Shown here piece by piece: positions 16,560-64,000 of a stretch of DNA of 64,000 bases. A program made the position numbers and the translations under genes. Position 1 is the stretch's first letter, and each line of letters begins with the position of its first letter. The notes beneath the pieces were generated by a model. That model saw only the letters and a list, made by a program, of their open reading frames with translations. It was not told the DNA's origin and made no database searches. Source of the stretch: Microtetraspora sp. NBRC 13810 (GTDB lineage: Bacteria; Actinomycetota; Actinomycetes; Streptosporangiales; Streptosporangiaceae); NCBI RefSeq assembly GCF_030268685.1, contig NZ_BSRQ01000023.1, positions 1 through 64,000 of the forward strand, written 5' to 3'.

Positions 16560-17716
16560 CAGTCCAGTGTGGCCTCTCCCGAGACCAGGGCGCGCGCGAT
16601 CACCATCCGCTGCACGTCGTTGGTGCCCTCGCCGATCGCCATCAGCGGCGCGTCCCGGTAGAGTCGCTCGATCACGAACTCCTGCGAGTAGCCGTAGCCG
16701 CCGTGCACCCGCATCGCCTCCATCGTGGTGCGCAGCGCCACCTCCGAGGCGAAGTACTTCGCCATCGCCGCCTCGGCGTTCACCGCCCCCGCCGCCGACC
16801 GGTCCGCCGCCCAGTACGTGAGCAGCCTGGCCGCCTGGATGTCGGTGGCCATGTCCGCCAGTTTGAGCTGGATCGCCTGGAACTCCGCGATCGGCCGGCC
16901 GAACGCCCGCCGTTCCCGCGCGTAGGCCAGCGCCGCGTCGTAGGCGCACTGCGAGACCCCCACGGCCCGCGCGGCGATGTTGATCCGGCCCAGCTCCAGC
17001 GCGGAGAGCACCTGCTGCATGCCGCGCCCCTCGGCCCCGCCGAGCAGGTCCCCCACCGGCACCCGCACCTCGTCGAGCACCACCTCACAGGTCTCGGTGC
17101 CCTTGTAGCCGAGCTTGGGCAGGTCGCGGCCGATCGAGAAGCCCTCGCTCGCCGGATCGACCAGCAGCACGGACATGCCCTTGTGCGCGGGCGTGGTCCG
17201 CGACGTCTTCACCAGCACCGGCAGCGGGTCGGCGTGCCTGGCGTTGGTGATCCAGGTCTTGGTGCCGGTGACGACGTAATGGCCGCCGTCGCGGACCGCC
17301 CTGGTCTGGATGCCCTGCAGGTCGGTGCCGGCGGCCGGCTCGGTGAGCGCGATCCCGGTACGGCGGGCGCCGCTCGCCAGGTCGGGCAGCAGCCGGGCGC
17401 GCTGTTCGTCCGTGCCGTATTTCGCGATCATCCAGGTGGCCAGCGAGTGCGAGCCGAGCACGCCGGCCACGCCCATCCAGCCGCGGGCGATCTCCTCGAA
17501 GACCAGCGCGAAGGACACCCGGTCGAGGTCGAGCCCGCCGTACTCCTCGGGGACGGTGATCCCGAACAGGCCGAGCTCCGCGAACCTTTCGACGATCTCG
17601 GCCGGGTAGCGGCCGGTGCGCTCCCACTCGGAGGCGACCGGCACGATCTCCTTGTCCACGAACTCGCGGAGAGTCCGTCTGAACAGCCGCTGCTCGTCGT
17701 TCAGTGCGAAGTCCAT
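16556..17716 (-). CDS. Acyl-CoA dehydrogenase
   Basis: The 386-residue flavoenzyme shows the three-domain ACAD fold. The N-terminal helical domain includes FGITVPEEYGGLDLD, the beta domain has ALTEPAAGTDLQGIQTRA and WITNARHAD, and the C-terminal helical domain has AFGRPIAEFQAIQLKLADM. Glu363 in IGEGTNDVQ is at the catalytic-base position used by short/medium-chain enzymes. It oxidises an acyl-CoA to the trans-2-enoyl-CoA with electrons passing to ETF. Chain specificity cannot be assigned. It is the first gene of an operon with the HIT gene. Confidence 0.9.
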   Translation of the reverse strand: MDFALNDEQRLFRRTLREFVDKEIVPVASEWERTGRYPAEIVERFAELGLFGITVPEEYGGLDLDRVSFALVFEEIARGWMGVAGVLGSHSLATWMIAKYGTDEQRARLLPDLASGARRTGIALTEPAAGTDLQGIQTRAVRDGGHYVVTGTKTWITNARHADPLPVLVKTSRTTPAHKGMSVLLVDPASEGFSIGRDLPKLGYKGTETCEVVLDEVRVPVGDLLGGAEGRGMQQVLSALELGRINIAARAVGVSQCAYDAALAYARERRAFGRPIAEFQAIQLKLADMATDIQAARLLTYWAADRSAAGAVNAEAAMAKYFASEVALRTTMEAMRVHGGYGYSQEFVIERLYRDAPLMAIGEGTNDVQRMVIARALVSGEATLDW

Positions 17717-17791
17717 CAGCCCGCCGCCTCGACCGGAACATGATTCGGAACTTCTACGCTAACCGATCGCCCGGCCCCGCACCCCGACCGG

Positions 17792-18304
17792 TCAGGTCAG
17801 GCGTCCGGCGCGCGCGGACGGCGGGGCCGCGCGCCTGCCGAGCAGGCGCCGGACGATCAGGAAGGCGACCACCCCGCCCGCGGTCCACACGAGTCCCTGA
17901 CGGCGCCGGATCCCGGCGGCGGGCCCGGTCTCCCCCCGGTCGCCTCCGTCCCCGGCCGGGACCGAAACGGGCACGCCGGTGGCCTGGCCGTCCGGCGAGG
18001 GCCCGGCGGCGGGCGGCTCGCGGGACGCGCGTTCCCCGGCGGCCTTCCGCTCCAGCGCGCCCACCTGGGGCTCCGCCCCCGGCTCTCCGGCACGGGCGAA
18101 GTCCTCGTGCGCGGCCTTCTCCCGGCCGGTGGTCCCCAGCGTCTCCTCCCGCTCGGCGTACTCCCGCGCCCCCGCCCTCGTGTTCGGCACGTTCAGCGAC
18201 AGCCGCTCGTCGGAGGGCACCTCCTCGCCCACCGTCTGCCGGTGCGCGCCGACGTCACCCGCGGTGTACTCCGGGCGGACCTCCCCTGGATCACTCTCGG
18301 TCAT
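17792..18304 (-). CDS. Hypothetical protein with a C-terminal membrane helix
   Basis: The 170-residue product is hydrophilic and disordered for most of its length (rich in Glu, Arg, Ala, Gly). It ends with one hydrophobic helix, LVWTAGGVVAFLIVRRLLG, at about 140-158 and a short basic tail. This is the layout of a tail-anchored protein with the bulk in the cytoplasm. No domain is recognised. The ATG at 18304 has GGAGG about 12 nt upstream; further upstream residues look like non-coding readthrough. It lies between the dehydrogenase and lipid kinase genes on the same strand. Confidence 0.65.
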   Translation of the reverse strand: MTESDPGEVRPEYTAGDVGAHRQTVGEEVPSDERLSLNVPNTRAGAREYAEREETLGTTGREKAAHEDFARAGEPGAEPQVGALERKAAGERASREPPAAGPSPDGQATGVPVSVPAGDGGDRGETGPAAGIRRRQGLVWTAGGVVAFLIVRRLLGRRAAPPSARAGRLT

Positions 18305-18489
18305 CTCCGGCGAACCTCCTCCTCCCCGGGCCTCCCCCGGGCCTTCCCGGCGCCCGGCCCTGGTGCGCCTACCCGCGGGACACACGGCAAACCTGCGGCG
18401 GGCGCGCGCTCAGCGACGCGGGCGGGGATCGCGCCCGGGGAGGGGGGCGGCGGCGGTGGTGCGGATGTGGCCGGCGTGGAACCCGCTGA

Positions 18490-19458
18490 TCAGTTGTCCA
18501 CGAAGTCCGCGGGCACCATCACGCGCAGCCCGTTGGCCACGGTGCGCAGCGTGATCGGCGTGAGCAGGCGGACCTCGCCGTCCACGTCGGCCCGCATCGG
18601 CGGGTCGGTCTCCAGCACGATCTCCCTGCCGACCACGAACGGACCGCCGGCGAGGCTGCGCCAGCGCCCGCCGGTGGCCCGGGTCAGGGTCTCCACCAGC
18701 AGTCTCAGCCGCTTGCCCGAGCCGAGCTGGTAGGCGACCAGCCTGCCGTTGTCGATGCTGATGTCGCTGGCGACCTGCCAGCCGCCCTGGAAGCGGCCGT
18801 TGGCGATGTTGAGCTGGTGGGTCAGCACCTCGTGCCGCCGCCCGTCCACGGTCAGGTAGGCGCGGAAGGGCCGGTGGCCGGGCAGCACCGTGAGCGCGGT
18901 GAGCGGGTAGGCGGCGCGGCCGACCAGTCGCTTGAGCCACGGCCGGACCGTGCCCGCCACCTCGACCGAGACGCCGAAGCTGGCGAGGTTGGCGAAGGCC
19001 CGGTCGCCGGCCATGCCGAGATCGATGTCGGCCACCTTGCCCCGGCTGAGCACGCCGATCGCGCCCGCCAGGTCGAGCGGCAGGCCCAGGCTGCGCGCGA
19101 AGTTGTTGGTGGTGCCGAGCGGCAGCACGCCGAGCGCCACGTCACGGTGCGCCACGTGCTTGACAGCCGTGCTGAGCGTGCCGTCGCCGCCGCCGACGAT
19201 GAGCAGGTCGGGCCCGTCGGAGAGCGCGGCCTCCAGGGTCGCACGCAGCTTCTTGGGGTTGACCACGCTGAACACCCGGTAAGGGTCGAACCCGTCCCTG
19301 CGCAGGATGCGGATGGCCTCCGGATAGAGCCGGCGGCCCCGCCGGGAGTGCGTGTTGATCACCACGGTCGCCCGCCGCAACTCGTGGATCGCCTTGGTGT
19401 GCTCGGTCTTGCTGCGCAGCCCGGCCGTGCCGTCTCCCGCGCCTTGCTCGCTGCCCAC
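18490..19458 (-). CDS. Diacylglycerol kinase-family lipid kinase
   Basis: This 322-residue protein has the DAGK catalytic fold. The nucleotide-binding loop VGGGDGT lies at 88-94, LGVLPLGTTNNFARSLGLPL follows at about 109-128, and a C-terminal beta domain contains MRADVDGE. Relatives phosphorylate diacylglycerol, sphingoid or other lipid hydroxyls (YegS/BmrU group). NFARSLG and DVDGE are the metal- and lipid-site blocks of that group. The GTG start follows GAGGGGAAAC. It has an N-terminal extension of about 28 residues with no predicted structure. The gene stands alone. Confidence 0.88.
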   Translation of the reverse strand: MGSEQGAGDGTAGLRSKTEHTKAIHELRRATVVINTHSRRGRRLYPEAIRILRRDGFDPYRVFSVVNPKKLRATLEAALSDGPDLLIVGGGDGTLSTAVKHVAHRDVALGVLPLGTTNNFARSLGLPLDLAGAIGVLSRGKVADIDLGMAGDRAFANLASFGVSVEVAGTVRPWLKRLVGRAAYPLTALTVLPGHRPFRAYLTVDGRRHEVLTHQLNIANGRFQGGWQVASDISIDNGRLVAYQLGSGKRLRLLVETLTRATGGRWRSLAGGPFVVGREIVLETDPPMRADVDGEVRLLTPITLRTVANGLRVMVPADFVDN

Positions 19459-19532
19459 GTTTCCCCTCAGAACCGATTCCCTTGTGTCTCGCGGAGAACC
19501 GTCGATTGCCCGCCTCCATCGTAGAACGCGGA

Positions 19533-19564
19533 ACGCCGCCCCCGGGCGGTCCCGGGGGCGGCGT
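19533..19564. terminator. Strong hairpin after the M6 protease gene
   Basis: ACGCCGCCCCCGGG (19533-19546) pairs perfectly with CCCGGGGGCGGCGT (19551-19564) across the 4-nt loop CGGT. The 14-bp all-GC stem begins 18 nt downstream of the protease stop (19582, minus strand) and precedes the lipid kinase start. No T-run is present, as is usual in actinomycetes. Confidence 0.85.
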
Positions 19565-19581
19565 GGCCGGATGAATCCGTG

Positions 19582-22356
19582 CTACTTCCTGGCCGCCTTC
19601 GGCGGGGTCACCTGAATGATCGCGCCGAGGTTGCCGGGCAGCGGGGCGACCAGCTTGAGCTGAACGCCCAGCGCCTTGCCCTCGTCACCGGGGTTGCCGG
19701 AGCCGAGCACGCTGCCGTTCACCTGCTGGCCGTACAGCTCCTTGGCCGGGGTGCCGTCGGGGTTCACGACCCGGGTGGAGTACGGCTGGTCGTCCTTGGA
19801 CGGGACGACCACCGAGGCGTCGAAGTCGCGGTAGCTCAGCGCGCCGTTCCGGACCTCCAGACCCGGGTACCACGTCTTCGCGTCGGTGAAGGCGGAGACC
19901 GCGGACAGGGCCGGGAACTTCGTGCAGTACTCGCTGAACGGCTCGGCCGCCGCTTCGAGGCACTCGGTGAAGGGGTAGGTCTTGCCGAAGGAGAAGGCCG
20001 CGTTCGAGGTCTGCGGGCGTCCCGGCAGGTTCTTGGCGACGGTGGTGTCCTTCTGCGCCGCCACGCCGGTGCGCCGCAGCGGGTCGAAGTGCGAGTCCAC
20101 CAGCAGCAGGCTGCCCTTGGTGCCGAGGCTCGGCGGCAGGGCCAGGTTGGACTGGAGGATGTTGTTGGTGAAGGTCGAGTCGCGGTACCAGACGAGCATG
20201 CCGGGCGCGTTGTACTTGACCTTCTCCACCTTCCAGGCGCCGTCGCGCAGGTAGTTGGTGTCGTAGGTGTACTGGAGGCCCTTGTCGAAGCCGTCGAAGT
20301 TGCGCCACTCGGCGAGGTAGAAGCGCTCGACCTCACGCTCGCCGTTGTTGATCGCCCAGCCGCCGCCGTGGGTGTTGGTGTGCGTGCCGCCGCTGGCCGC
20401 CCAGCCGTTGGCGCCGCCCTCGACGTCGTCGCTCCACACGGTCTGGCCGCCGCTGGTCACCGAGAAGTCGTCGGAGTGCCAGCCGCGCGGGGTGAAGGCC
20501 GCGTCGGTGTTGTAGCGCAGGCGCAGCTTGACCGTCTTGCCGGCGAACGGCGCGAGGTCGACGTAGTCGTGCCGCCAGCCGTTGGTGTTGCCGGTCAGGC
20601 CGTACTTCTTGTTGCCGAAGGTGGCGAGGTTCTTGTTCGGGTCGGTGTAGTCGTCGTCGGTGCTGACCAGGTTGCCGGCCTCGTCGTAGACCTTCTGCTC
20701 GGCCCAGGTGGCGCCGCCGTCGGCGGACACCTCGACGAAACCGTAGTCCCAGTCCTCCTCGATCTCGTAGTTGTTCCACAGCCAGAACTTCACGTCGGAC
20801 CCGGCCGGGACCTGCACCTCGCGGGTGAGCTTGACGTCGGCCCACTCCTGGTCGAGGTTGGACCACCAGGCGTTCGATCCGCTGTGCGGCTCGATCATGG
20901 CGAGCGGCGCGCTGTCCAGGTTCACCCGGACGCCGTCCTCGGTGAGCTTGGGCGTGCGCGAGGTCTGGCCGACGGTCACCAGGCCGCCCCGGTCACCCGG
21001 GTCGAAGGTCTTCGGGTCCGCCCAGCCGAGCACCCACTTGTCCCACAGTCCCATGTGCGTGGGCATCGACTGGAAGATCGGCCCGGAGTGGGAGCCGCTG
21101 GACATGAGGTCCCAGAAGTCCACCGCCGACTCCGCGCCGCCGGAGGTGTCGTAGAGGTCGGGCAGGCCCAGGTCGTGACCGTACTCGTGGGCGAAGACGC
21201 CGACGCCGGAGTCCTCCGGCTGCACGATGTAGTTGGAGATCTTGAGCTGGGTGCCGGGGATGCTGTAGCCGCCGGCCACCGCGCTGGAGTGCGCCCAGAT
21301 CGCGTACGTGCCCTGCGCGCCGCCGTCGCCCGACTTGTCCTTGCCGGCGTGCACCAGCACCAGGTGGTCGATCACGCCGTCGGGCTCGGAGTAGTTGCCG
21401 TCGCCGTCGGCGTCGGAGACGTCCTCGACGTCGTAGTCGGCCCACGGGAAGTCCGGCTGCTGCTCGGCCAGCGTGTTCACCGCGTCGATGGCGAGCTGGG
21501 CCGCGCCGACCCGGTTGTCCGGGTGGCCGGACATGTCCTGCGCCGCGCCGCCACAGGCGGACGCGCCGTACCACGCCTCGGAGTGCGGGACCTTGAGCCA
21601 GCCGACGGCCTCGCCGTTGACCGAGTAGGCGCCCTTGGACATCTCCTCGTACATGTTCTTCATGGTGTAGCCGGACATGTCGATGCCGGCCTTGCCGTCG
21701 GGCCCCTTGAGGTCCTTGCGCACCCGGGTGGTGATGCCCTCCTTGGAGTAGAGCATCTTGTTGAAGTGCGAGGTGCTGAAGTCCGGCACCCACATGGTGT
21801 TGTTGTCCTTGCGGGGCAACTTCGCCGGGTCCGGGATCTGGTTGTGGAGGGGACCGTTGAGCAGGGTGCCCGGCGGCTCCGTCACGCAGTCGTCCGGGCC
21901 GCTGCCGATGGCGCGCGGCCGGGAGAACCCGGAGAAGTCGTCGTTCGCCTGGTCGTTGAACTCGACGAGCAGGGTGAGCAGCTCGGCGTTCTGCGTCTGC
22001 TTCGAGTTCTTGAAGATGAACTGCGCGGGGTTGAGGCCGGTCCGCATGGCCTGGCGCTCCCGGGCGGCGAGGACCCGGCCGGCGACCGGGTTGCCGCTGG
22101 AGAACTTCTGGTCGAACTTCTTGGTGGTCGCGGCCATCGTCCGGGCCCGGCTGGAGACGCTGGGCTCGCTCTGCTCCGGCTCGACGGCCGGGGCGGCGTA
22201 GTTGATGTAGTAGTCCGCCGGTGACGGCTGGTATCGCGCGATCGAGGTGTCGGCCGGAGTGGCGGCACCGGTGATCGCGAGGCCCGCTGCGGCGAGACCC
22301 AACGCCGGCACGATCGCGATGAGGCGCCGTCGGGCGCCCCTGCCTCTGCTGGACAA
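19582..22356 (-). CDS. Secreted immune inhibitor A-like M6 metalloprotease
   Basis: The 924-residue protein has a Sec signal peptide (basic start MSSRGRGARRR, then a hydrophobic helix to about residue 33). The M6 catalytic domain contains the zinc site HEYGHDLGLPD (His390, Glu391, His394, Asp400), followed by the DFWDLMSSG turn containing the Met-turn. Beta-sandwich domains with MAM/VEG-like features follow to the C-terminus (SGSNAWWSNLDQEWADVKL and later). Bacillus InhA relatives degrade host antibacterial and matrix proteins; in soil actinomycetes a general extracellular protease is more likely. The start is TTG at 22356 with GGAGGAAG 5 nt upstream. A strong hairpin follows the stop. Confidence 0.9.
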   Translation of the reverse strand: MSSRGRGARRRLIAIVPALGLAAAGLAITGAATPADTSIARYQPSPADYYINYAAPAVEPEQSEPSVSSRARTMAATTKKFDQKFSSGNPVAGRVLAARERQAMRTGLNPAQFIFKNSKQTQNAELLTLLVEFNDQANDDFSGFSRPRAIGSGPDDCVTEPPGTLLNGPLHNQIPDPAKLPRKDNNTMWVPDFSTSHFNKMLYSKEGITTRVRKDLKGPDGKAGIDMSGYTMKNMYEEMSKGAYSVNGEAVGWLKVPHSEAWYGASACGGAAQDMSGHPDNRVGAAQLAIDAVNTLAEQQPDFPWADYDVEDVSDADGDGNYSEPDGVIDHLVLVHAGKDKSGDGGAQGTYAIWAHSSAVAGGYSIPGTQLKISNYIVQPEDSGVGVFAHEYGHDLGLPDLYDTSGGAESAVDFWDLMSSGSHSGPIFQSMPTHMGLWDKWVLGWADPKTFDPGDRGGLVTVGQTSRTPKLTEDGVRVNLDSAPLAMIEPHSGSNAWWSNLDQEWADVKLTREVQVPAGSDVKFWLWNNYEIEEDWDYGFVEVSADGGATWAEQKVYDEAGNLVSTDDDYTDPNKNLATFGNKKYGLTGNTNGWRHDYVDLAPFAGKTVKLRLRYNTDAAFTPRGWHSDDFSVTSGGQTVWSDDVEGGANGWAASGGTHTNTHGGGWAINNGEREVERFYLAEWRNFDGFDKGLQYTYDTNYLRDGAWKVEKVKYNAPGMLVWYRDSTFTNNILQSNLALPPSLGTKGSLLLVDSHFDPLRRTGVAAQKDTTVAKNLPGRPQTSNAAFSFGKTYPFTECLEAAAEPFSEYCTKFPALSAVSAFTDAKTWYPGLEVRNGALSYRDFDASVVVPSKDDQPYSTRVVNPDGTPAKELYGQQVNGSVLGSGNPGDEGKALGVQLKLVAPLPGNLGAIIQVTPPKAARK

Positions 22357-55928: not shown

Positions 55929-55969
55929 GTGACGCCCGCGCCGGGTCACCCGGGTGGCACGGGCGTCAC
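55929..55969. terminator. Hairpin after paaE, overlapping the moxR 3' end
   Basis: GTGACGCCCG (55929-55938) pairs perfectly with CGGGCGTCAC (55960-55969). The right arm lies within the last codons of the convergent moxR gene, whose stop is at 55946-55948. A 24-bp imperfect direct repeat (TGACGCCCGC-CCGGGTCACCC) precedes it. Confidence 0.6.
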
Positions 55970-58765
55970 CGCGCAGATCTCCTCGACCAGGTCCGCCGCG
56001 GTGCGCCCGCGAGCCTGCGCCTCCGGGGTGAGGGCTAGCCGGTGGGCCAGCACCGGAACGGCGAGCGCCTTGACGTCCTCGGGCACCACGTAGTGCCGCC
56101 CGGCCGCGGCGGCCCGCACCCGCGCGGCCCGGAGCAGCCCGATACCGGCCCGCGGGCTCGCCCCGGACCGCGTGTCCTGCGCGGTCCTGGTGCCCGCGAC
56201 GACGCCCACCACGAAGTCGTAGATCGGGTCGGCGACGTGGATCCGGGTCGCGAAGTCGATCATGCCGGCGACGTCCGACGCCCTGGCCACCAACGGCAGC
56301 TGCTCGACCTGGGCGCCGGAGTTCCTGAGCATGTCCACCTCGGCCGCGTGGTCCGGGTAGCCGACCGGCACGCACATCAGGAAGCGGTCGAGCTGGGCCT
56401 CCGGCAGCGGGTGCGAGGCGTCGGTGTCCGCCGGGCTCCGGGTGGCCAGCACCAGGAACGGCCTGGGCACCGGCCGGGACTCCGCCCCCACCGTGACCCT
56501 GCGCTCCTCCATCACCTCCAGGAGCGCCGCCTGCGTCTTCGGCGCCGCCCGGTTGATCTCGTCGGCGAGCACGATGTTGCCGAACACCGGCCCCTCGTGG
56601 AACTCGAACCTCTGCGCCTGCGGGTCGAACACCGACACGCCCGTGATGTCCGAGGGCAGCAGGTCGGGGGTGAACTGCACCCGCCGCAACCGCGCGTCCA
56701 CACCGGCCGCGATCGCCCGCGCCAGCGTCGTCTTGCCGGTGCCCGGCACGCCTTCCACCAGCAGGTGCCCCTCGGAGAAGAGGCAGATCAGGGCCAGCTC
56801 GACGACGTCCCGCCTGCCCTTGATCACCTTCTCCACGTTGCCCGCGAGCAGTTCGAACCGCTGCGCGAACTGCGCCGCCAGCGCCGCCACCTCGCCCTGC
56901 GCCTCCGGCACCTCCATCCGCCGCTGGTGACCGGACTCCGGCGTCGGCGCCGCATAGGGCGCCTGCGCGGCGTAGCCGTCCCCCTGGTGGGAGGGGCTGT
57001 ACGGCGCGAGCTCCTGCCCCGGCGCGTACGACGCCGCGTCCCTGTACTCCTGGTAGGCGGGCTCCTTCGGCGGGTACACCGGGGTGTCCTTCGCCGCGTA
57101 GTCCTTGGCCCCGTAGTCCTTGGCCGCGTACGAAGGCCCGTCCTTGAACGCCGGCCGGTCCACCGGGGCGTAGGAGTCCTGGGCCCCGTAAGGCACGACC
57201 TCCTGACCGGCGTGCTCCTTCGGAGCGTAGTCCTGGCCTCCCCTGTAGGGGACGTCCTGCGAGGTGTACGGCGAGGCGTCGCCGTACGGGGGAGGCGTAC
57301 GGTAGCCGTTGTCCGGCGAGGGCCGGTGCGCGGGCTCGAACCCGCCATCCGTACCGGAACGGGGTGCCGGGTCCGGGGCGGGCCGGGGGTCGTAGCCGGG
57401 ATCGGACCCCGGGCGGTCGTAAGTGTCGGTGCCCGGACGCGGGGACGGGTCATAACCGCTGTCGGAGGCGGGCCGGGGGTCATAACCGCCGTCCACCCCC
57501 GAACGCGGCGACGAGTCGTACCCGCCGTCAGAGCCAGTCCGCGCGTCGTAACCGCCGTCGGACCCCGGACGCGGCTCGTAGCCACCGTCCGAGCCAGGCC
57601 GGGGATCGAAACCGCCGTCGGAACCAGGCCGAGGATCGTAACCGCCGTCCGAGCCAGGCCGGGGATCGAAACCGCCGTCGGCGCCTGGGCGAGGCGACGG
57701 ATCGTAAGCGCCGTCAGACCCCGGACGCGGCGACAGATCGTAGCCGCCGTCCGAACCGGCGCGGGGGTCGTAACCACCCTCAGATCCCGAACGCGGAGAC
57801 GGCTCATAACCACCGTCGGCCCCGGGACGCGGCTCGTAACCACCGTCAGAACCCGGGCGCGGAGCAGGGTCGTAGCCACCGTCCGAACCGGGACGCGACT
57901 CGTAACCACCCTCGGACCCCGAACGCGAAGCGGGGTCATAACCACCGTCGGGACCAGGACGCGACTCGTAACCACCCTCAGATCCCGAACGCGGAGACGG
58001 CTCATAACCACCGTCGGACCCGGGACGGGGGTCGTAGCCGGCGTCGGAACCGGGGCGGGGGTCGTACCCGGTGTCAGAACCGGGACGAGGGTCGTAGCCG
58101 CTGTCGGGGGCCGGGCGGGGGGACGGGTCGTAGCCGCCGGAGAGGGGGGCGGAGGCGTCGTAGCCGTGGCTTCTGACCGGCATGGCGTAGGTGGTCTCGC
58201 CGTCGCGGTAGGCGAGGTCGCCGGGTGCCTTGTCGTCGTCGTAGCCGGGGCCGCGGCCCGCGCCCGGGTAGGCGGGGAGGCCGGGCAGGGTCGGGTACCC
58301 GCCGGTGATGATCTGCGCGACGTCGATGCCGCCCGAGGGCTTCTTCTCGCCGTACCCGCCCGGCGGCGGACCGCCCTTGTCACCGTAACCGGGCGGCGGG
58401 CCCTGGTCGCCGTAACCAGGGGGCGGACCTTGGTCGCCGTAGCCAGGTGGCGGGCCCTGGTCGCCGTAGCCCGGGGGCGGGCCCTGGTCGCCGTAGCCCG
58501 GGGGCGGGCCCTGGTCGCCGTAGCCCGGGGGCGGGCCCTGGTCGCCGTAGCCAGGTGGGGGGCCGTCGGCGTACGGGCCGGGGCGGGGGTGGTCGTCGTA
58601 GGCGTTGGGCTGGCGGGGGGTGGGGCGGTCGCGGTCGGCGGAGCCGGGGGCGGTCGGGAAGCCGAGCGCGTCGACGGCGCCGTGCTCGCCTTTGGCGGGA
58701 CGCCTGCCGGAGGAGTCCGCGTACCCCTCGCGGGGCTGGCCGGACTCCGGGCGGTTACTGCTCAC
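55946..58765 (-). CDS. MoxR-family AAA+ ATPase with giant repeat-rich N-terminus
   Basis: The 939-residue protein has a normal MoxR module only at the end (about 615-939): VEGVPGTGKTTLARAIA (Walker A near 672), VLADEINRAAPKTQAALLEV (Walker B and sensor) and LATRSPADTDASHPLPEAQL. Before it lie about 600 disordered residues: eight or so GPPPGYGDQ units (about 68-133), a spacer, then about 25 decapeptides of GSDGGYDPRP type (207-468) and a Tyr/Pro/Ala tail. MoxR proteins remodel or insert metal into partner proteins and usually sit beside DUF58 and VWA genes; none is adjacent here. The GTG start follows GGAGG at 7 nt. The unusual tail may form a condensate or surface contact (inference). Confidence 0.88.
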   Translation of the reverse strand: MSSNRPESGQPREGYADSSGRRPAKGEHGAVDALGFPTAPGSADRDRPTPRQPNAYDDHPRPGPYADGPPPGYGDQGPPPGYGDQGPPPGYGDQGPPPGYGDQGPPPGYGDQGPPPGYGDQGPPPGYGDKGGPPPGGYGEKKPSGGIDVAQIITGGYPTLPGLPAYPGAGRGPGYDDDKAPGDLAYRDGETTYAMPVRSHGYDASAPLSGGYDPSPRPAPDSGYDPRPGSDTGYDPRPGSDAGYDPRPGSDGGYEPSPRSGSEGGYESRPGPDGGYDPASRSGSEGGYESRPGSDGGYDPAPRPGSDGGYEPRPGADGGYEPSPRSGSEGGYDPRAGSDGGYDLSPRPGSDGAYDPSPRPGADGGFDPRPGSDGGYDPRPGSDGGFDPRPGSDGGYEPRPGSDGGYDARTGSDGGYDSSPRSGVDGGYDPRPASDSGYDPSPRPGTDTYDRPGSDPGYDPRPAPDPAPRSGTDGGFEPAHRPSPDNGYRTPPPYGDASPYTSQDVPYRGGQDYAPKEHAGQEVVPYGAQDSYAPVDRPAFKDGPSYAAKDYGAKDYAAKDTPVYPPKEPAYQEYRDAASYAPGQELAPYSPSHQGDGYAAQAPYAAPTPESGHQRRMEVPEAQGEVAALAAQFAQRFELLAGNVEKVIKGRRDVVELALICLFSEGHLLVEGVPGTGKTTLARAIAAGVDARLRRVQFTPDLLPSDITGVSVFDPQAQRFEFHEGPVFGNIVLADEINRAAPKTQAALLEVMEERRVTVGAESRPVPRPFLVLATRSPADTDASHPLPEAQLDRFLMCVPVGYPDHAAEVDMLRNSGAQVEQLPLVARASDVAGMIDFATRIHVADPIYDFVVGVVAGTRTAQDTRSGASPRAGIGLLRAARVRAAAAGRHYVVPEDVKALAVPVLAHRLALTPEAQARGRTAADLVEEICAVTPVPPG
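57360..58145. repeat. Long array of 30-bp-type tandem repeats in moxR
   Basis: About 25 imperfect units, mostly 30 or 33 bp, encode G-S-D-G-G-Y-D/E-P-R/S-P peptides. Unit boundaries keep the reading frame. Divergence is mainly at third positions, showing coding selection rather than CRISPR or satellite DNA. Confidence 0.85.
58366..58560. repeat. 27-bp tandem repeat (GPPPGYGDQ) in moxR
   Basis: Seven to eight units of 27 bp (for example GGCCCTGGTCGCCGTAGCC on the plus strand), three of them identical, code the nonapeptide GPPPGYGDQ on the minus strand. Near identity suggests recent expansion. Confidence 0.85.
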
Positions 58766-59321
58766 CGGAACCTCCGGAAGAGGCCCGGCCGCGAGGCCGG
58801 GACGTGATCCGGCCCCCGTTAAGGGGGGCCCGGCGACAGCGGGGCAGCCTCGGCCGCGAAGCGTCCGTCATGAGCGAGTCCTCTCTCGATCAGATGCGGG
58901 ATCCGGGCGTTCACGAAACGGCGGGCACGCCGGACGTCGAAGAGACGGGAAACCGTCCCCGGCCGTCTCCGCGGGCCTCTCGCCGCGGAGCGCTCAGGCC
59001 GCCGTTCCACTCGATCCGGGACCGGGTGGCGCCGATCTGACCGGTACCGTCATCGGCGCGGGCGGTCACGTCCGCGTTTCCGGGAACGCCGCAGGCCGGA
59101 CCGGTGGCCCGACCGCTTGGCGGCCTGGGGAATCTCACCCTGACTCACCCCGTGTGCCCGATGACTGATCCTTGGTCCCCGTTTTAACCAGGGTCACCCT
59201 AGCGTGGGTCACAGGTAACCCGCAGGTATCCATCCAAGCCATGACATTCTGCACAGGGGTCGGGCGGGGGCGCCCGGCGAGCGGGCCAGGACTGTCGTAC
59301 GCACGCCGTACCGTAGTGCGC
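58766..59321. other. Intergenic region between moxR and the SMC-like operon
   Basis: About 550 bp separate the divergent genes. A 56-codon ATG frame at 58870-59040 (+) has no ribosome binding site and weak codon bias, so I do not call it a gene. Stems GGCCCGGCC/GGCCGGGAC (about 58781-58802) and GGCCCCC/GGGGGGCC (58811-58831) lie in the moxR leader. The segment 59140-59250 has lower GC and repeated GGGTCAC-like motifs (GGTCACC, GGGTCAC) that may be regulator sites. Confidence 0.4.
59309..59321 (+). promoter_or_regulatory. Candidate -10 box for a leaderless SMC-operon mRNA
   Basis: TACCGT (59309-59314) is followed 7 nt later by the GTG at 59322, with no ribosome binding site. An in-frame GTG at 59316 is too close to the box to be used from this promoter. 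Confidence 0.4.
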
Positions 59322-60536
59322 GTGCTTCAGACCGACCAGGCGATCACCCTCGACTCAGCGCTGAGCGAGGAGGCGGTGCTCGCGACCTACCGGCGCATGT
59401 TCGCCGCCCTCGCGCGGGACAGCGGCGCGGTCGTCGACGATCCCGTGCTCGTCGACATCGCCGAGACGCTGTTCGCGGCGTTCGCGGAGGCGGGCGAGGA
59501 GTGGCTGACCCACGAGCAGATGCGTTATGCCTGCCGCGACCACCCGGCCGACCTGTTCGAAAACCGGTTGCGCGTGCTCAGGGGGCTCGGCGCGATCCGC
59601 GAGGTCTTCCCCAAGCCCAACCAGCTGCGTTACCGGGCGTCGTTCACCAGCGTGGTCGGCCTCATGTTCGTCCGGCGGATGATGGACGACGGCGGCCAGT
59701 CCGAGATGCACCGCCTGCTCGCGCTCGAAGATCTCAACGTCGCCGACCCGCGCACCACCATGGAGGAGGCGCGGCAGAGCGCGCACAACCTGGCGCGGGC
59801 GTTCCGGCTGTGGGCGCTGGAGCTGATCACCCTGACCATGGGCACCATCGAGGAGCTGCGCGAGCAGGCTCCGAAGCTGTGGGGCACCGAGGAGATCGCG
59901 CGGCGGGCGCAGAGCCTGCACGGCACGATCCTGACCCGCTGGCCCGAGCTCGACCGCACCTGCACCGAGCTGCGCGCGGCGATCTACTCCTACAGCGACG
60001 CCTCGCGGCGGGCGGCGGGCCGCCTGGCCGACTCGGCCGGCACCACCCGCAACCTGACCCTGCTGCCGTCCGAGACGTGGCGCACCTTCGCCCAGACGGC
60101 GTCCAAGGAGCGGCTGGCGGCGGTGCTCGACGGGCTGGTCTTCGACGCCCCCGCGCCGTGGCACGACCCGGCGGCGATCGTCCGCGCCGTGGACGAGAGC
60201 CCGCGTCCCGCGCTCGCCCAGCCCACGCCCCCGCGCTCGGCCCTGCCCGACCCCGGTCCCGAGGGCTCCTACGACGCCGGCGGCGGACCGGCGGCGGACC
60301 GCCTGACGGCCGTGGCCGAGGAGGCGCTGGCCGGGCGTGACTCGGTCGCCCTCCAGGAGCTGCTGGGCGCGGCGGGCGACTGGGTGTCCGCGCGCCGCCT
60401 CCTCGCCGACCTCGCCGCCGTGGATCTGCGGCCCGAGCTCCCCTACCGGCTGCGCTGGTCCGACGAGCTGACCGCCTCCCCCGAGGCCGAGCCCACCTGG
60501 CTCACCCACGGCCGCCTCGAAAGGACCACCCCGTGA
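59322..60536 (+). CDS. Winged-helix kleisin-like protein (MukF/MksF/JetA position)
   Basis: The 404-residue protein has an N-terminal winged-helix-like segment (EEWLTHEQMRYACRDHPADL, then LRVLRGLGAIREV and QLRYRASF, about 60-108). A long all-helical middle follows (FVRRMMDDGG to LWALELITLTMGTIEELREQ), then helices to about 270, a flexible stretch and a C-terminal helical/WH-like end (LAGRDSVALQELLGAAGDWV to YRLRW). This is the layout of MukF-type kleisins, and the gene is first in a row with a WH protein and an SMC-like ATPase. It does not resemble DUF3375, the usual Wadjet type I JetA. GTG 59322 fits a leaderless start. The stop overlaps the next gene by 4 bp. Confidence 0.65.
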   Translation: MLQTDQAITLDSALSEEAVLATYRRMFAALARDSGAVVDDPVLVDIAETLFAAFAEAGEEWLTHEQMRYACRDHPADLFENRLRVLRGLGAIREVFPKPNQLRYRASFTSVVGLMFVRRMMDDGGQSEMHRLLALEDLNVADPRTTMEEARQSAHNLARAFRLWALELITLTMGTIEELREQAPKLWGTEEIARRAQSLHGTILTRWPELDRTCTELRAAIYSYSDASRRAAGRLADSAGTTRNLTLLPSETWRTFAQTASKERLAAVLDGLVFDAPAPWHDPAAIVRAVDESPRPALAQPTPPRSALPDPGPEGSYDAGGGPAADRLTAVAEEALAGRDSVALQELLGAAGDWVSARRLLADLAAVDLRPELPYRLRWSDELTASPEAEPTWLTHGRLERTTP

Positions 60537-62257
60537 CCCCCGCCACCCCCGGACCGTCCGACGCGCCCCCGGACGCCCCCGGGTCCGCCCCCTCCACGGG
60601 CGGCTCCGGGCGCTTCTCGCATGCCGCGGACCATGACGGAGGGCCGTTGCGGGGCGCCGGGGCGGGGATCGGGGCGCGTGGGTGGGAGCCTGCGGTGGCG
60701 CACGCGGTGGCGCGGGCGACGGGGCCGCTGGCGCTCGGGGTCGACGAGCCCGCGCCCGCGGGGATGACGCGGCTGGTGCACGACGACGGCACGGGGCTCG
60801 CCCTGCCGGTGTGGCCGGACGGGGCGACTCCCGCGCTGCTGGAGGAATACCAGGTCACGGCCGTCTCGGTGGAACGTTCCGGTGAGGCCCGGCGGGTGCT
60901 GGCCGCCTGCCTCACATGCTGCTGGACCGACCTCGACGCCGACCCGTGGCCGGGCGAGCCCGCGCCGCTGGATCTCGTCCTCGCCGCCTATCGCGCCCTC
61001 ATCGGCCGCAACGACGACCTGATGCGCAACTGGGCGATCGGCGCGCTGCGCCGGCTGCACGACTCGGCCTGGGTGACCCTGTCCGGGGGTGTCGTACGGC
61101 TCGGCCCGCGCTGCGCCACCTGGCCCCCGGAGTCGCACGGCCAGCTGCGCGAGCTGATGCGCCGCCTCCCACCCCCCGAGGCCCCCTCCGTCCTGCCCCT
61201 CTTCTCCCCCGCCGCGCCGCCGGCGGCCACCCCCTCCACCACCCCGGCGACCGTCGGCACGGAAGCGACCGCCGAAGGCCCGGAGACCACCGCAGAAGAC
61301 GAGGAGGCGACCACCCGGAGCGCGGAGATCACTGCCGAGGGCGCGGAGGCGACCACCCGGAGCGCGGAGGCCACCGCCGAGGGCGCGGAGACGTCCGCCG
61401 CCCTCGACGGCGTGACCGCCCCTCCTCGCGACGCGGCCGAGGCGATGTCCCCGGCGACGTCCCCGGCGACGCAGGAAGGGGAGCGCGGCGGGGAGCCGGT
61501 GGGGGTGACCGTGCTGGACGGCGGCGGGTGGGACGACGAGTGCCTGGAGGCGTTCGACGAGCGGCGCCGGGCGGAGCTGGTGGCGGCGTTCCTGGCCGTG
61601 GAGCACGCGGCCGAACCGGTGCAGGAGGCGCGGTTCGCCGCGCTGCGCGACCCCGCGCTCCGCCGTACGCTCGGCGAGATGCTCGCCAGGCGGGGGCGCG
61701 CGCTGATCCAGCGCCGCGACCGCTGGACGTCGGGGTACGACGACGCGGTGGCGGCCGGTGTGGGCACGACGCTCGGCGAGGCGGAGCGGGCGGTGCTCGT
61801 GCTGGTGCTCGTGCACTCGGTGGCGATCCCGCGCTCGGAGGGGGTGCTCGGGGAGGACACCTGGCTCTCGCCGTTCCCGACCCCGGCCGAGGAGCTGCGC
61901 CGCCACTCGCAGCTGCCGATCGGCGAGCTGGAGTCCGCGCTCAGGTCGCTCCGGCACGCGGGCCTGCTCACCCAGGTCAAGGCGGGCGAGGAGGCGGGCG
62001 GCTACGTCCCGGGCCCGCAGTTCCACCGGCTGACCCAGGAGGCGCGGCGCCGGCTGCAGGAGGAGCTGATCCTGGCCGCCGGCCCGAACACGCCGCTCGC
62101 GGCGGCCGTGCGCGCGAAACGCGCACCCCAGGAGCGGCACGGCGCCCGGCCCGCGACGGCCGGCGGCGAAAACGATCAAGATGGTGCCGGCGGACTGTCC
62201 ACGGCGGGTACGGCCGGCGGGCGCGGGCGGGGCGACGGAGAAAGGGGCGGGAAGTGA
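60533..62257 (+). CDS. Large winged-helix protein (MukE/MksE/JetB position)
   Basis: The 574-residue protein has two ordered parts separated by a disordered linker. The first (about 100-210) contains the WH-like segment LMRNWAIGALRRLHDSAWVT and LSGGVVRLGPR. The second (about 320-530) has LGEAERAVLVLVLVHSVAIP, then LRRHSQLPIGELESALRSLR and HAGLLTQ, a WH with a wing GGYVPGPQFHRLT. The linker (about 220-310) is Glu/Thr/Ala-rich with tandem repeats. MukE-type subunits are WH dimers of about 200-240 residues that bind the kleisin, so this would be an enlarged version. The GTG start overlaps the upstream stop and the TGA overlaps the SMC-like start. Confidence 0.6.
   Translation: MTPATPGPSDAPPDAPGSAPSTGGSGRFSHAADHDGGPLRGAGAGIGARGWEPAVAHAVARATGPLALGVDEPAPAGMTRLVHDDGTGLALPVWPDGATPALLEEYQVTAVSVERSGEARRVLAACLTCCWTDLDADPWPGEPAPLDLVLAAYRALIGRNDDLMRNWAIGALRRLHDSAWVTLSGGVVRLGPRCATWPPESHGQLRELMRRLPPPEAPSVLPLFSPAAPPAATPSTTPATVGTEATAEGPETTAEDEEATTRSAEITAEGAEATTRSAEATAEGAETSAALDGVTAPPRDAAEAMSPATSPATQEGERGGEPVGVTVLDGGGWDDECLEAFDERRRAELVAAFLAVEHAAEPVQEARFAALRDPALRRTLGEMLARRGRALIQRRDRWTSGYDDAVAAGVGTTLGEAERAVLVLVLVHSVAIPRSEGVLGEDTWLSPFPTPAEELRRHSQLPIGELESALRSLRHAGLLTQVKAGEEAGGYVPGPQFHRLTQEARRRLQEELILAAGPNTPLAAAVRAKRAPQERHGARPATAGGENDQDGAGGLSTAGTAGGRGRGDGERGGK
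61304..61387. repeat. 42-bp tandem repeat in the linker of the WH protein
   Basis: Two 42-bp units begin at 61304 and 61346 and differ at four positions. They code EATTRSAE-I/A-TAEGA peptides in the acidic linker. In-frame and likely variable. Confidence 0.75.
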
Positions 62258-64000
62258 CCCGGATGGAGAACGTCGTGGGGGATCGGGTGCTCATCGCCGT
62301 GCAGGCGGTGAACATCTCCCGGCTGTCCACCCATCCGGTGCCGACCGTGCCCGGCACGCTGATCGTCGTCGCGGGCGCCGGGCCGAAGGACTCCAACGGC
62401 GCGGGCAAGTCCTCGTTCATCGCGGCGATCACGGCGTTGCTCGGCGACGAGCAATGGCGCTTCGCCTCGGGTGCCAAGACGGTGGCCGAGCTGCTGTTCA
62501 ACGCGGAGCTGGCCACCGGGGCGGGCGGCCGGCAGTGGGCGAGCGCCGATCACGGCTACATCGTCGGCGTCTTCGACCACGCCACCCCCGGCGACCCGCT
62601 GACCGTGTGGCTGCGGGTCAACCAGGAGGCGCCGCACCTGGAGATCCGCTGGACCTCGGGGGTGTACGTCTCCACCGCGCCCTCGGAGGCCGAGCGGGTG
62701 GCCCGTGCCGACGAGATGTGGCTGACGCTGCCGCGTTCGGCGGGCCGGCGCGACGTGGTGGCGCGCGACCTCACCAAGTTCCTGTACGGCGACCGCGTGC
62801 GCTGCGTGTCCTTCCTGTCCACCTCGGTGCGTACCAAGGTGGCCACCAACCTGCTCTCCCAGCCGCTCAACGAGATCTCCCCTGAGCGGGTCTTCGAGGC
62901 GGTCGCCGCGCTCACCGGGCTCGACGCCGAGCTGGACCTGGAGCGTGAGGCCAGGCGGGACGAGCACGCCAAGCGGGTGCGGGCGGCGCAGGCGGGCGAG
63001 CGGCTGCGCGAGTTCGGGGCGGAGTCCCGGTCGCTGCTGGTCACCTTCGACCGCCGTGACCAGGCGAGGATTCACCTGGCCGACGCCCTGCGCTGCTGGC
63101 GGGGGCGGCTGGCGCGCCGCCTGGCGGACGCCGGTGAGCGCGACGCCGCGCTCGCCGGCGACCTGGAGAGGCACCGGGCGGCGGCGCTGGCCGCGGCCGA
63201 GGCGATCGCCGCGGTCAAGGCCGAGATCGCCACCCTGAAGGACGACACGGTGGCCAGAGGTCTCGCCGAGGCGCGCAGGGGGCTGGCGGAGACGCAGGCC
63301 AGGGCGGCGAAACTGGAGGCCGACCGCGCCGTCGCGGAGAACTCCGCGGACGAGCTGCGCGGCCGGATCCCCGGCCTGGAGGAGGCCAGGCGCTTCGCCG
63401 ACGGCAGGGAGGTGCCGGCCGCCGAGCGGGAGCTGGCCGAGGCCAGGCAGCGGCTCAACGCCGCCCTGAAGGCGCTCGGGGTGGCCGACCGCGAGGTCGA
63501 GGGCGCCGCCGCCGCGCTGGACGACGCCGAGGGCGGCCCGGCCGCGGCCCAGCTCAGGACGCTGGCCGAGGCGGGGGTGGCCGCCAGCGGCCTGCTCGAC
63601 GCGGTCGACGTGGCCGAGCAGGCTCGCGACAACGCCCCGTCGCCCGCGCCGCTCGACGGGCTGCGCGGCTGGCCGCACGAGCACGCGGTGATCGTCGACG
63701 CCGCCGAGCTGACCGCCGCGTCCAGGGCGCTCGCCGAGCTGCCCGGGTCGGTGCTGGTCAGCGCGGCGGGCGTCACGGTCGTCGGGTCGTTCGACGCCGT
63801 GACCACCGGCAGGGAGGCCAGGATCAAGGCCGCCGAGCAGCGGCTGAACCGCGCCCGCGACGCGCAGGACGAGGCGGCCGGGGCGGTGCGCGCGGCCGAG
63901 GACGGTGTGGCGGAGGCGTCGCGGCGGCTGGAGGGGGCGCGGGCGGGTGTCCGGCTCGCCGACATCGAGCGCAGGCTCGCCGAGCGGCGGGAGCGGCTGA
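62254..64000 (+). CDS. SMC/MukB-like ATPase, N-terminal part (cut by window end)
   Basis: The frame from GTG 62254 runs open to the window end (582 codons seen). It begins with an ABC/SMC nucleotide-binding lobe: Walker A GPKDSNGAGKSSFIAAITAL (Lys52), with Q-loop and other landmarks less clear (VAELLFNAELATGAGG, DVVARDLTKFLYGDRVRC). A coiled coil begins near residue 235 (LDLEREARRDEHAKRVRAAQ, heptad pattern) and runs to about 455. A non-coiled segment at about 470-520 (GLRGWPHEHAVIVDAAELTA to VTVVGSFDAV) could be a hinge, and a second coil follows. The layout is SMC-like, as in MukB/MksB/JetC. The C-terminal lobe and any JetD gene lie beyond the edge. Confidence 0.75.
   Translation, partial: MTRMENVVGDRVLIAVQAVNISRLSTHPVPTVPGTLIVVAGAGPKDSNGAGKSSFIAAITALLGDEQWRFASGAKTVAELLFNAELATGAGGRQWASADHGYIVGVFDHATPGDPLTVWLRVNQEAPHLEIRWTSGVYVSTAPSEAERVARADEMWLTLPRSAGRRDVVARDLTKFLYGDRVRCVSFLSTSVRTKVATNLLSQPLNEISPERVFEAVAALTGLDAELDLEREARRDEHAKRVRAAQAGERLREFGAESRSLLVTFDRRDQARIHLADALRCWRGRLARRLADAGERDAALAGDLERHRAAALAAAEAIAAVKAEIATLKDDTVARGLAEARRGLAETQARAAKLEADRAVAENSADELRGRIPGLEEARRFADGREVPAAERELAEARQRLNAALKALGVADREVEGAAAALDDAEGGPAAAQLRTLAEAGVAASGLLDAVDVAEQARDNAPSPAPLDGLRGWPHEHAVIVDAAELTAASRALAELPGSVLVSAAGVTVVGSFDAVTTGREARIKAAEQRLNRARDAQDEAAGAVRAAEDGVAEASRRLEGARAGVRLADIERRLAERRERL

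Follow-up and report, generated by a model that had tools for sequence, protein, structure and literature searches.

A candidate Wadjet-like SMC branch of Actinomycetota with a fused KITE-like protein and, in one lineage, apparent loss of its nuclease

What kind of molecular machine is encoded by three closely packed genes of Microtetraspora sp. NBRC 13810 that resemble, in order, a kleisin, a winged-helix protein and a structural maintenance of chromosomes (SMC) ATPase? The genes lie at the end of a 64,000-nucleotide stretch (the window), which comprises bases 1–64000 of contig 23 (NZ_BSRQ01000023.1) from an 8.97-Mb genome rated 100% complete; we label the locus L009. The first gene, K (59322–60536, plus strand, GTG start, with an alternative start at 59316), encodes a kleisin-like protein of 404 residues. 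The second, W (60533–62257, plus strand, GTG start), encodes 574 residues predicted to form two fused winged-helix modules that resemble KITE (kleisin-interacting tandem winged-helix element) proteins. The third, S (from 62254 to the window end at 64000, plus strand, GTG start), encodes an SMC-like ATPase of 982 residues and, on extending the contig, ends at contig position 65202 (L009:6203). The open reading frame coordinates agree with a preliminary description of the window, which had reported three consecutive genes with 4-bp overlaps at both the K/W and W/S junctions. We consider it rather likely that the operon represents an undescribed Wadjet-like branch of SMC complexes, in which the nuclease was lost in this lineage and a MukBEF-like DNA motor was left. 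An undescribed branch of SMC complexes had also been suggested in the preliminary description, and it is supported by predicted folds, co-occurrence of the genes, JetD-type genes in relatives and the lack of a library family. No publication on this branch was found by title or abstract opening, in a search that lay outside most subscription papers and preprints.

With S as the query, a real match was obtained in 62 genomes, its own included, out of 150 from the window's family (67 at an E-value of 0.001, five being weak and short), and in 2 of 295 other genomes sampled from the phylum, plus one weak match. Within one genus of the family, 14 of the 16 genomes carry the gene. A 10-row SMC alignment scanned against GTDB returned 331 relatives, of which the best 80 were kept, all Actinomycetota by their titles. 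Together with the window's locus and 20 loci from other genomes, these make up the 101 loci examined, or 95 distinct loci once six duplicates (L058–L063) are discounted; the best 80 were ranked by likeness to a distant query (L063) and short conserved patterns were required, so the fractions given here are no census. A six-frame profile search found the order K-W1-W2-S on one strand (W1 and W2 being the two modules of W) in 96 of the 101 loci (90 of the 95 distinct), and the remaining five start at the edge of a contig. Co-occurrence of the three genes across genomes, whose lack would have counted against the early reading of the locus, is near-complete. The K match is partial in five of these 96 loci, four of them at a contig end and the fifth a damaged Streptomyces locus (L101:9004–13403), where the SMC gene is split by transposase-like genes (by eye) and K is a fragment. 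No relatives appeared in viral contigs among 330 pattern matches, or in phages with the distant SMC of L066 as query, and three queries against a plasmid collection matched one record (NZ_LT559118.1, 11.85 Mb, Nonomuraea), which is probably a chromosome.

The relatives connect the operon to a known defence system. According to a 2023 review (PMC10586767), JetA, JetB and JetC of Wadjet are the kleisin, KITE and SMC subunits, JetD carries a Toprim domain, and types I–III are distinguished; two other papers report Wadjet in 42% of Actinobacteria (PMC10482375) and mention a Wadjet-II (PMC12647877). In 40 of the 101 loci (35 of the 95 distinct) a JetD/MksG-type Toprim gene adjoins the operon, either following S or preceding K, which ties the operon family to Wadjet. 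This gene is mostly 400–480 residues long where fully called, and two distinct loci have it on the opposite strand. Pfam JetD_C or DUF2399 scored above cut-off in all ten genes scanned (best JetD_C match 2.4e-18), and PADLOC JetD models matched five of five, one at 3e-4 only. A 17-row profile of the JetD-type proteins matched MksG (8b7f) in the PDB with an E-value of 7.4e-6, and joined Wadjet-II JetD at 97.9% in hhalign; here and below, profile comparisons with Wadjet were confined to type II, represented by 13 operons (JetD from 9). The residues E317, D364 and D366 are invariant in the 17 rows and stand where the acidic residues of a Toprim domain lie.

The SMC-type Walker A motif and long coiled coil that had been described for gene 3 were both borne out. 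In the alignment of relatives, Walker A of S spans residues 43–55, GPKDSNGAGKSSF (62380–62418, plus strand), with residues 43–54 reading GPKDSNGAGKSS. The Walker A residues G43, P44, D46, N48, G51 and K52 and the Walker B residues D886 and E887 do not vary in any of the 90 aligned rows. The two motifs flank the coiled coil, and a central region is conserved among relatives. No SGGE signature was found in S, and Y851, N856 and A858 are invariant at the corresponding place. In Pfam and NCBIfam, S gave P-loop or coiled-coil matches only, all under the curated cut-offs, and its profile matched SMC3 (2.7e-4) and MukB (0.028) in the PDB over coiled-coil stretches only, alongside ABC-transporter ATPases and P-loop-free matches. 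Against Wadjet-II JetC, hhalign joined the Walker A region only (86%), with no gain from splitting S.

Several known SMC-like families were considered for S and rejected. A Rad50/SbcC type is contradicted by the lack of any match to SbcC family models and the lack of a cysteine in the central region (residues ~430–520), where no zinc hook was found; comparison with an SbcC profile gave a 17-column P-loop match at 18%. S is not canonical Smc, with a TIGR02168 coiled-coil match of 22.9 bits against a cut-off of 567. Since a canonical Smc is encoded elsewhere in the genome (L172, 895.6 bits), S is not a replacement condensin. The match to LmuB of Lamassu is confined to coiled coil (5.8e-4), and no match to LmuA or LmuC was obtained with K or W. 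We gave no weight to the weak matches that S or its relatives show to coiled-coil families, among them ASRP, LmuB and JetC. PADLOC JetC models match two distant S proteins (6e-6 and 3e-5) in the coiled coil only, and a mad3 match of S begins at the P-loop (6e-4).

For K, an AlphaFold2 (AF2) model built from 55 sequences (mean predicted local distance difference test score, pLDDT, 75.6; predicted template modelling score, pTM, 0.44) shows an N-terminal winged helix (residues ~41–106), a helical middle part, a linker and a C-terminal winged-helix-like part (~322–401). A Foldseek search of 350,542 PDB chains placed the MukBEF chain 9gm7_C first (2.5e-4, the sole match below 0.001), followed by the JetABC chain 9qxt_E (0.033), named MukF entries (0.09–0.55) and a second JetABC chain (0.26); the subunit identity of unnamed MukBEF and JetABC chains, including 9gm7_C as MukF, was assigned from chain length. 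VIA aligned the model with MukF(1–287) at a Z-score of 9.9 over 192 residues (root mean square deviation 6.6), and the absence of JetA from the VIA rows shown carries no negative weight. These predicted structures agree with the MukF/JetA-like layout proposed for gene 1 and support a kleisin identity, with moderate confidence in the model. Pfam and NCBIfam returned nothing for K at E-values up to 1, DUF3375 included, whose absence had already been noted in the preliminary description; the sole PADLOC match was a weak one to DrmMI (0.0016), and the K profile found no MukF and nothing related among PDB sequences.

Gene 2 had been described as a single long winged-helix protein like MukE with a repeat-rich linker. 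The winged-helix fold (as modelled), the length and the linker stand, and the single MukE-like gene gives way to two fused modules. W1 (60689–61210, plus strand; profile match L009:1690–2211, 1.4e-50) and W2, with tandem winged helices (61541–62137, plus strand; L009:2542–3138, 1.2e-78), are joined by a low-complexity linker of residues ~222–325 (61196–61508, plus strand), in which pLDDT is below 50 over most of residues 222–322 and which is shorter or absent in relatives. Among the 97 loci that yielded both modules, W1 and W2 are separate genes in 65 and a single open frame in 32 (three duplicates in each class); gene 2 of the window is therefore a fusion of two genes. The modules bear a weak mutual likeness (hhalign 46%, 2e-4) and might be paralogues. 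The AF2 model of W, built from 21 sequences (pLDDT 70.2, pTM 0.60), gave ScpB 6juv_A as the top Foldseek match (7.7e-4, the sole match below 0.001), then ScpB, ScpAB and MukE entries (0.004–0.03) and JetABC chains of Wadjet I and II (0.16–0.19), and VIA aligned W2 with the ScpAB chain 3w6j_C (Z-score 8.6, model residues 345–514). A KITE identity of W is thereby supported at moderate model confidence. Searches of W against Pfam and NCBIfam (E-values up to 1) gave nothing, and its profile found no MukE and nothing related among PDB sequences. The Foldseek scores are modest, yet for both K and W the top-ranked model match is the expected subunit. With subunits assigned from predicted folds and Walker motifs, the gene order appears to be that of MukFEB, MksFEB and JetABC, as the preliminary description had it.

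The identical gene order and the predicted folds would also fit a MksBEF or Wadjet operon of the ordinary kind that has escaped the libraries, which we regard as improbable. None of the three proteins has a convincing family in Pfam, NCBIfam or PADLOC, the Wadjet-II profiles join only the Walker A region of S, and there are two distinct KITE-like genes. With Wadjet (JetABCD/MksBEFG) the operon shares the kleisin-KITE-SMC order and, in relatives, the adjoining Toprim gene, whereas the window proteins match no JetA, JetB or JetC models in PADLOC or Pfam, two KITE-like genes or their fusion are present, the window clade is without JetD, and in some relatives a kinase has taken the place of the Toprim domain. 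With MukBEF and MksBEF it shares a nuclease-free kleisin-KITE-SMC composition in F-E-B order, the predicted fold of K being nearest MukF and that of W near MukE; it differs in lacking a common sequence family (Pfam, NCBIfam), in having relatives found only in Actinomycetota, in coexisting with canonical Smc and in a KITE pair of two different modules, fused here. With Smc-ScpAB it shares a modelled KITE fold resembling that of ScpB; it differs in that the genome has its own Smc and S stays under the TIGR02168 cut-off. Eukaryotic Smc5/6 has a KITE pair, Nse1/Nse3, and two SMC genes; two different KITE subunits per complex are common to both, whereas the operon has one SMC gene and W no further Pfam domain.

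What became of the nuclease in the window lineage? A JetD-like gene beyond position 64000 had been named as something to look for at this locus, and none was found on reading the contig further: about 560 bases without a coding call follow S, and then genes for a STAS-domain protein and an isochorismatase. Across the window genome the 17-row profile found no JetD, although it detected the gene in five of five control genomes, and Pfam JetD_C likewise gave no match there, with Corynebacterium glutamicum as the positive, PF09664 not being searched separately. In each of the genomes G078 and G120, a window-type copy without a JetD match on its own contig coexists with a distant copy that bears JetD. 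The preliminary description had offered plasmid defence or chromosome organisation as roles; the genome yielded no JetD-type nuclease, which makes a JetD-dependent defence against plasmids unlikely in this organism.

The distribution of JetD was read on the SMC tree, a 90-row tree made by a quick method with SH-aLRT (Shimodaira-Hasegawa-like approximate likelihood-ratio test) support only; it is unrooted, and almost all of its several long branches belong to the distant side. Eleven of the 101 loci were dropped beforehand: the six duplicates, L052 and L122 (of window-clade type), the damaged L101, and L079 and L082 (SMC uncalled). The window clade has 45 rows, the named ones from Streptosporangiaceae and Thermomonosporaceae, and none has JetD in its fetched flanks; on the distant side JetD is present in 31 of 36 rows. 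A sister group of nine rows includes two with JetD, three with a JetD-type N-domain joined to a kinase and four with neither. In a 78-row kleisin tree the window clade falls on one side of a branch (support 99) and the distant rows on one side of another (100), and the sister rows fail to group together. JetD identities correlate with SMC identities (Mantel r 0.75, 0 of 999 permutations). Loss of JetD is the parsimonious direction of change. Fusion of W1 and W2 changes three times on the SMC tree, counting L127, which was labelled unfused with W1 off the contig; without L127, the fused rows occupy two distinct regions of the tree.

The genes of the window lineage are under purifying selection: dN/dS (the ratio of nonsynonymous to synonymous substitution rates) is 0.05–0.32 in seven window-clade pairs (four of them for W, every pair for K and S), apart from a 94-codon stretch of K at 0.66. 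A JetD-less Streptomyces pair on the distant side gave 0.22 and 0.38. This selection and the invariant catalytic residues of S make a decaying remnant left behind by JetD loss highly improbable, even though JetD is absent from the window genome as far as detectable and the distant L101 has an interrupted SMC gene and a mere fragment of K. Together, apparent loss of the DNA-cutting subunit and strong selection suggest a defence machine turned to another job.

In the sister group, the effector itself seems to have changed. Directly 3' of the SMC gene, three loci from Streptomyces, Micromonospora and Saccharothrix (L109:12063–13433, L115:12093–13430 and L125:12141–13478) encode a JetD-type N-domain (3.4e-13 to 2.6e-15) followed by a Ser/Thr kinase (Pfam 3e-27 to 2e-26), with dN/dS of 0.17 and 0.30. 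Their N-domains are nearest (41–48%, against at most 37% for the next long match) to those of L138 and L057, the two JetD-bearing rows of the same group, and so JetD was very probably present in an ancestor of the sister group, with the kinase form an apparent effector swap. Wadjet is not known to have such a kinase effector, and none appeared by title in a literature search. Beside the JetD-less Streptomyces loci L070–L072 and L080, no replacement effector was recognised by eye.

Such a swap in related loci lends some weight to a still-defensive complex in which K, W and S sense foreign DNA and recruit an unlinked or general effector, for instance the SbcCD encoded nearby or a nuclease from another part of the genome. 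At the window locus, a membrane-protein gene (by eye) follows the isochorismatase gene, and then sbcC and sbcD on the opposite strand (L009:9758–15439); among the 45 window-clade loci, 22 have sbcC, often with sbcD, in the fetched stretch, and in L138 sbcC precedes K by 316 bp on the same strand. We find continued defence unlikely, if still a serious contender, since no linked effector was recognised among the downstream genes at the window locus, the locus is kept in nearly all genomes of the genus mentioned above, and the sbcCD synteny may simply reflect a single chromosomal site passed on by descent. The same neighbours could indicate a DNA-repair complex working with SbcCD (Mre11-Rad50) on ends or hairpins, which seems less likely again. 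Three arrangements occur across the window clade and sister group (downstream convergent in Streptosporangiaceae, upstream divergent in some Thermomonosporaceae and directly upstream codirectional in L138), and sbcC or sbcD is near 5 of 36 distant loci, all in one Streptomycetaceae subclade. Conversely, 23 of the 45 window-clade loci have no sbcC in the fetched stretch, some stretches being short, and sbcCD lies on the opposite strand except in L138 and on one side of L077, so the genes do not form one operon. Neighbour-sharing was compared between two clades, of which the distant one has few pairs at equal identity.

Other neighbours were observed. The Kitasatospora locus L077, whose operon bears JetD, has sbcCD-like genes at both sides (L077:1278–4870 and 17331–21046). 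In 11 of 23 Thermomonosporaceae-side loci (e.g. L097:5617–8937), a protein of about 1100 residues is encoded just after S on the same strand, and in 9 of the 11 a Ser/Thr kinase-family gene lies further on. The two such proteins that were scanned gave weak HEAT-repeat matches below threshold; the protein may be a HEAT-type component acting with the complex, or it may be adjacent by chance. Upstream of the operon in the window, an AAA ATPase gene (55946–58765, minus strand; MoxR-like by eye) encodes a long N-terminal run of GYGDQGPPP- and RPGSDGGYDP-type repeats.

Several observations weigh against a Wadjet-like branch that has lost its nuclease. Fold prediction was confined to K and W, leaving any MukB-like hinge of S outside that support, and both models are only moderate (pTM 0.44 and 0.60), with best-match TM-scores of 0.12–0.26 of the query. 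Unrelated winged-helix proteins are interspersed among the lower Foldseek matches of K, designed helical proteins rank above MukF for K in VIA, and the VIA lists for both proteins are mostly generic winged helices and helical designs. Nor does hhalign significantly join K to Wadjet-II JetA or W1 and W2 to JetB, the best values for K or W being 9.5% (JetA) and 1.0% (JetB). The absence of JetD was judged from flanks alone except in the window genome, G078 and G120; the correlation of JetD with SMC identities is only 0.32 for SMC pairs below 60% identity; and with unrooted trees, JetD loss rests on parsimony.

On balance we retain a Wadjet-like complex, whose composition and relationship are well supported. 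For its mechanism, we infer that S dimers, with ATPase heads and coiled coil, would be bridged by the kleisin K, with the W1-W2 pair, covalently fused here, acting as the KITE dimer. The ancestral complex would have had a JetD-type Toprim nuclease as its partner, an arrangement that presumably persists in many relatives; in the window lineage JetD would then have been lost and the two KITE genes fused, while the ATPase core was kept under selection. The complex most likely still loads on and moves along chromosomal DNA with ATP, by loop extrusion and without cutting, in parallel to MukBEF and MksBEF, in what would be a chromosomal rather than a defensive role.

The 2023 review leaves open how Wadjet and other SMC complexes are related by evolution, and calls an origin of MukBEF and MksBEF from Wadjet a tempting speculation (PMC10586767). 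Somewhat more tentatively than the nuclease loss itself, we suggest that Streptosporangiaceae and Thermomonosporaceae have domesticated an anti-plasmid SMC machine, which shed JetD, fused its KITE proteins in most Streptosporangiaceae loci and may have taken up a chromosomal job beside Smc, an independent replay of the proposed route from Wadjet to MukBEF; in the sister branch, replacement of Toprim by a Ser/Thr kinase may couple DNA sensing to phosphorylation rather than cleavage. With this operon the SMC complexes gain a branch that goes unrecognised by the defence and domain libraries we used. Nuclease-bearing, kinase-bearing and nuclease-free forms occur within this one SMC family, two of them in the same genome in G078 and G120, so that comparisons among relatives can test the step from plasmid restriction to another function.

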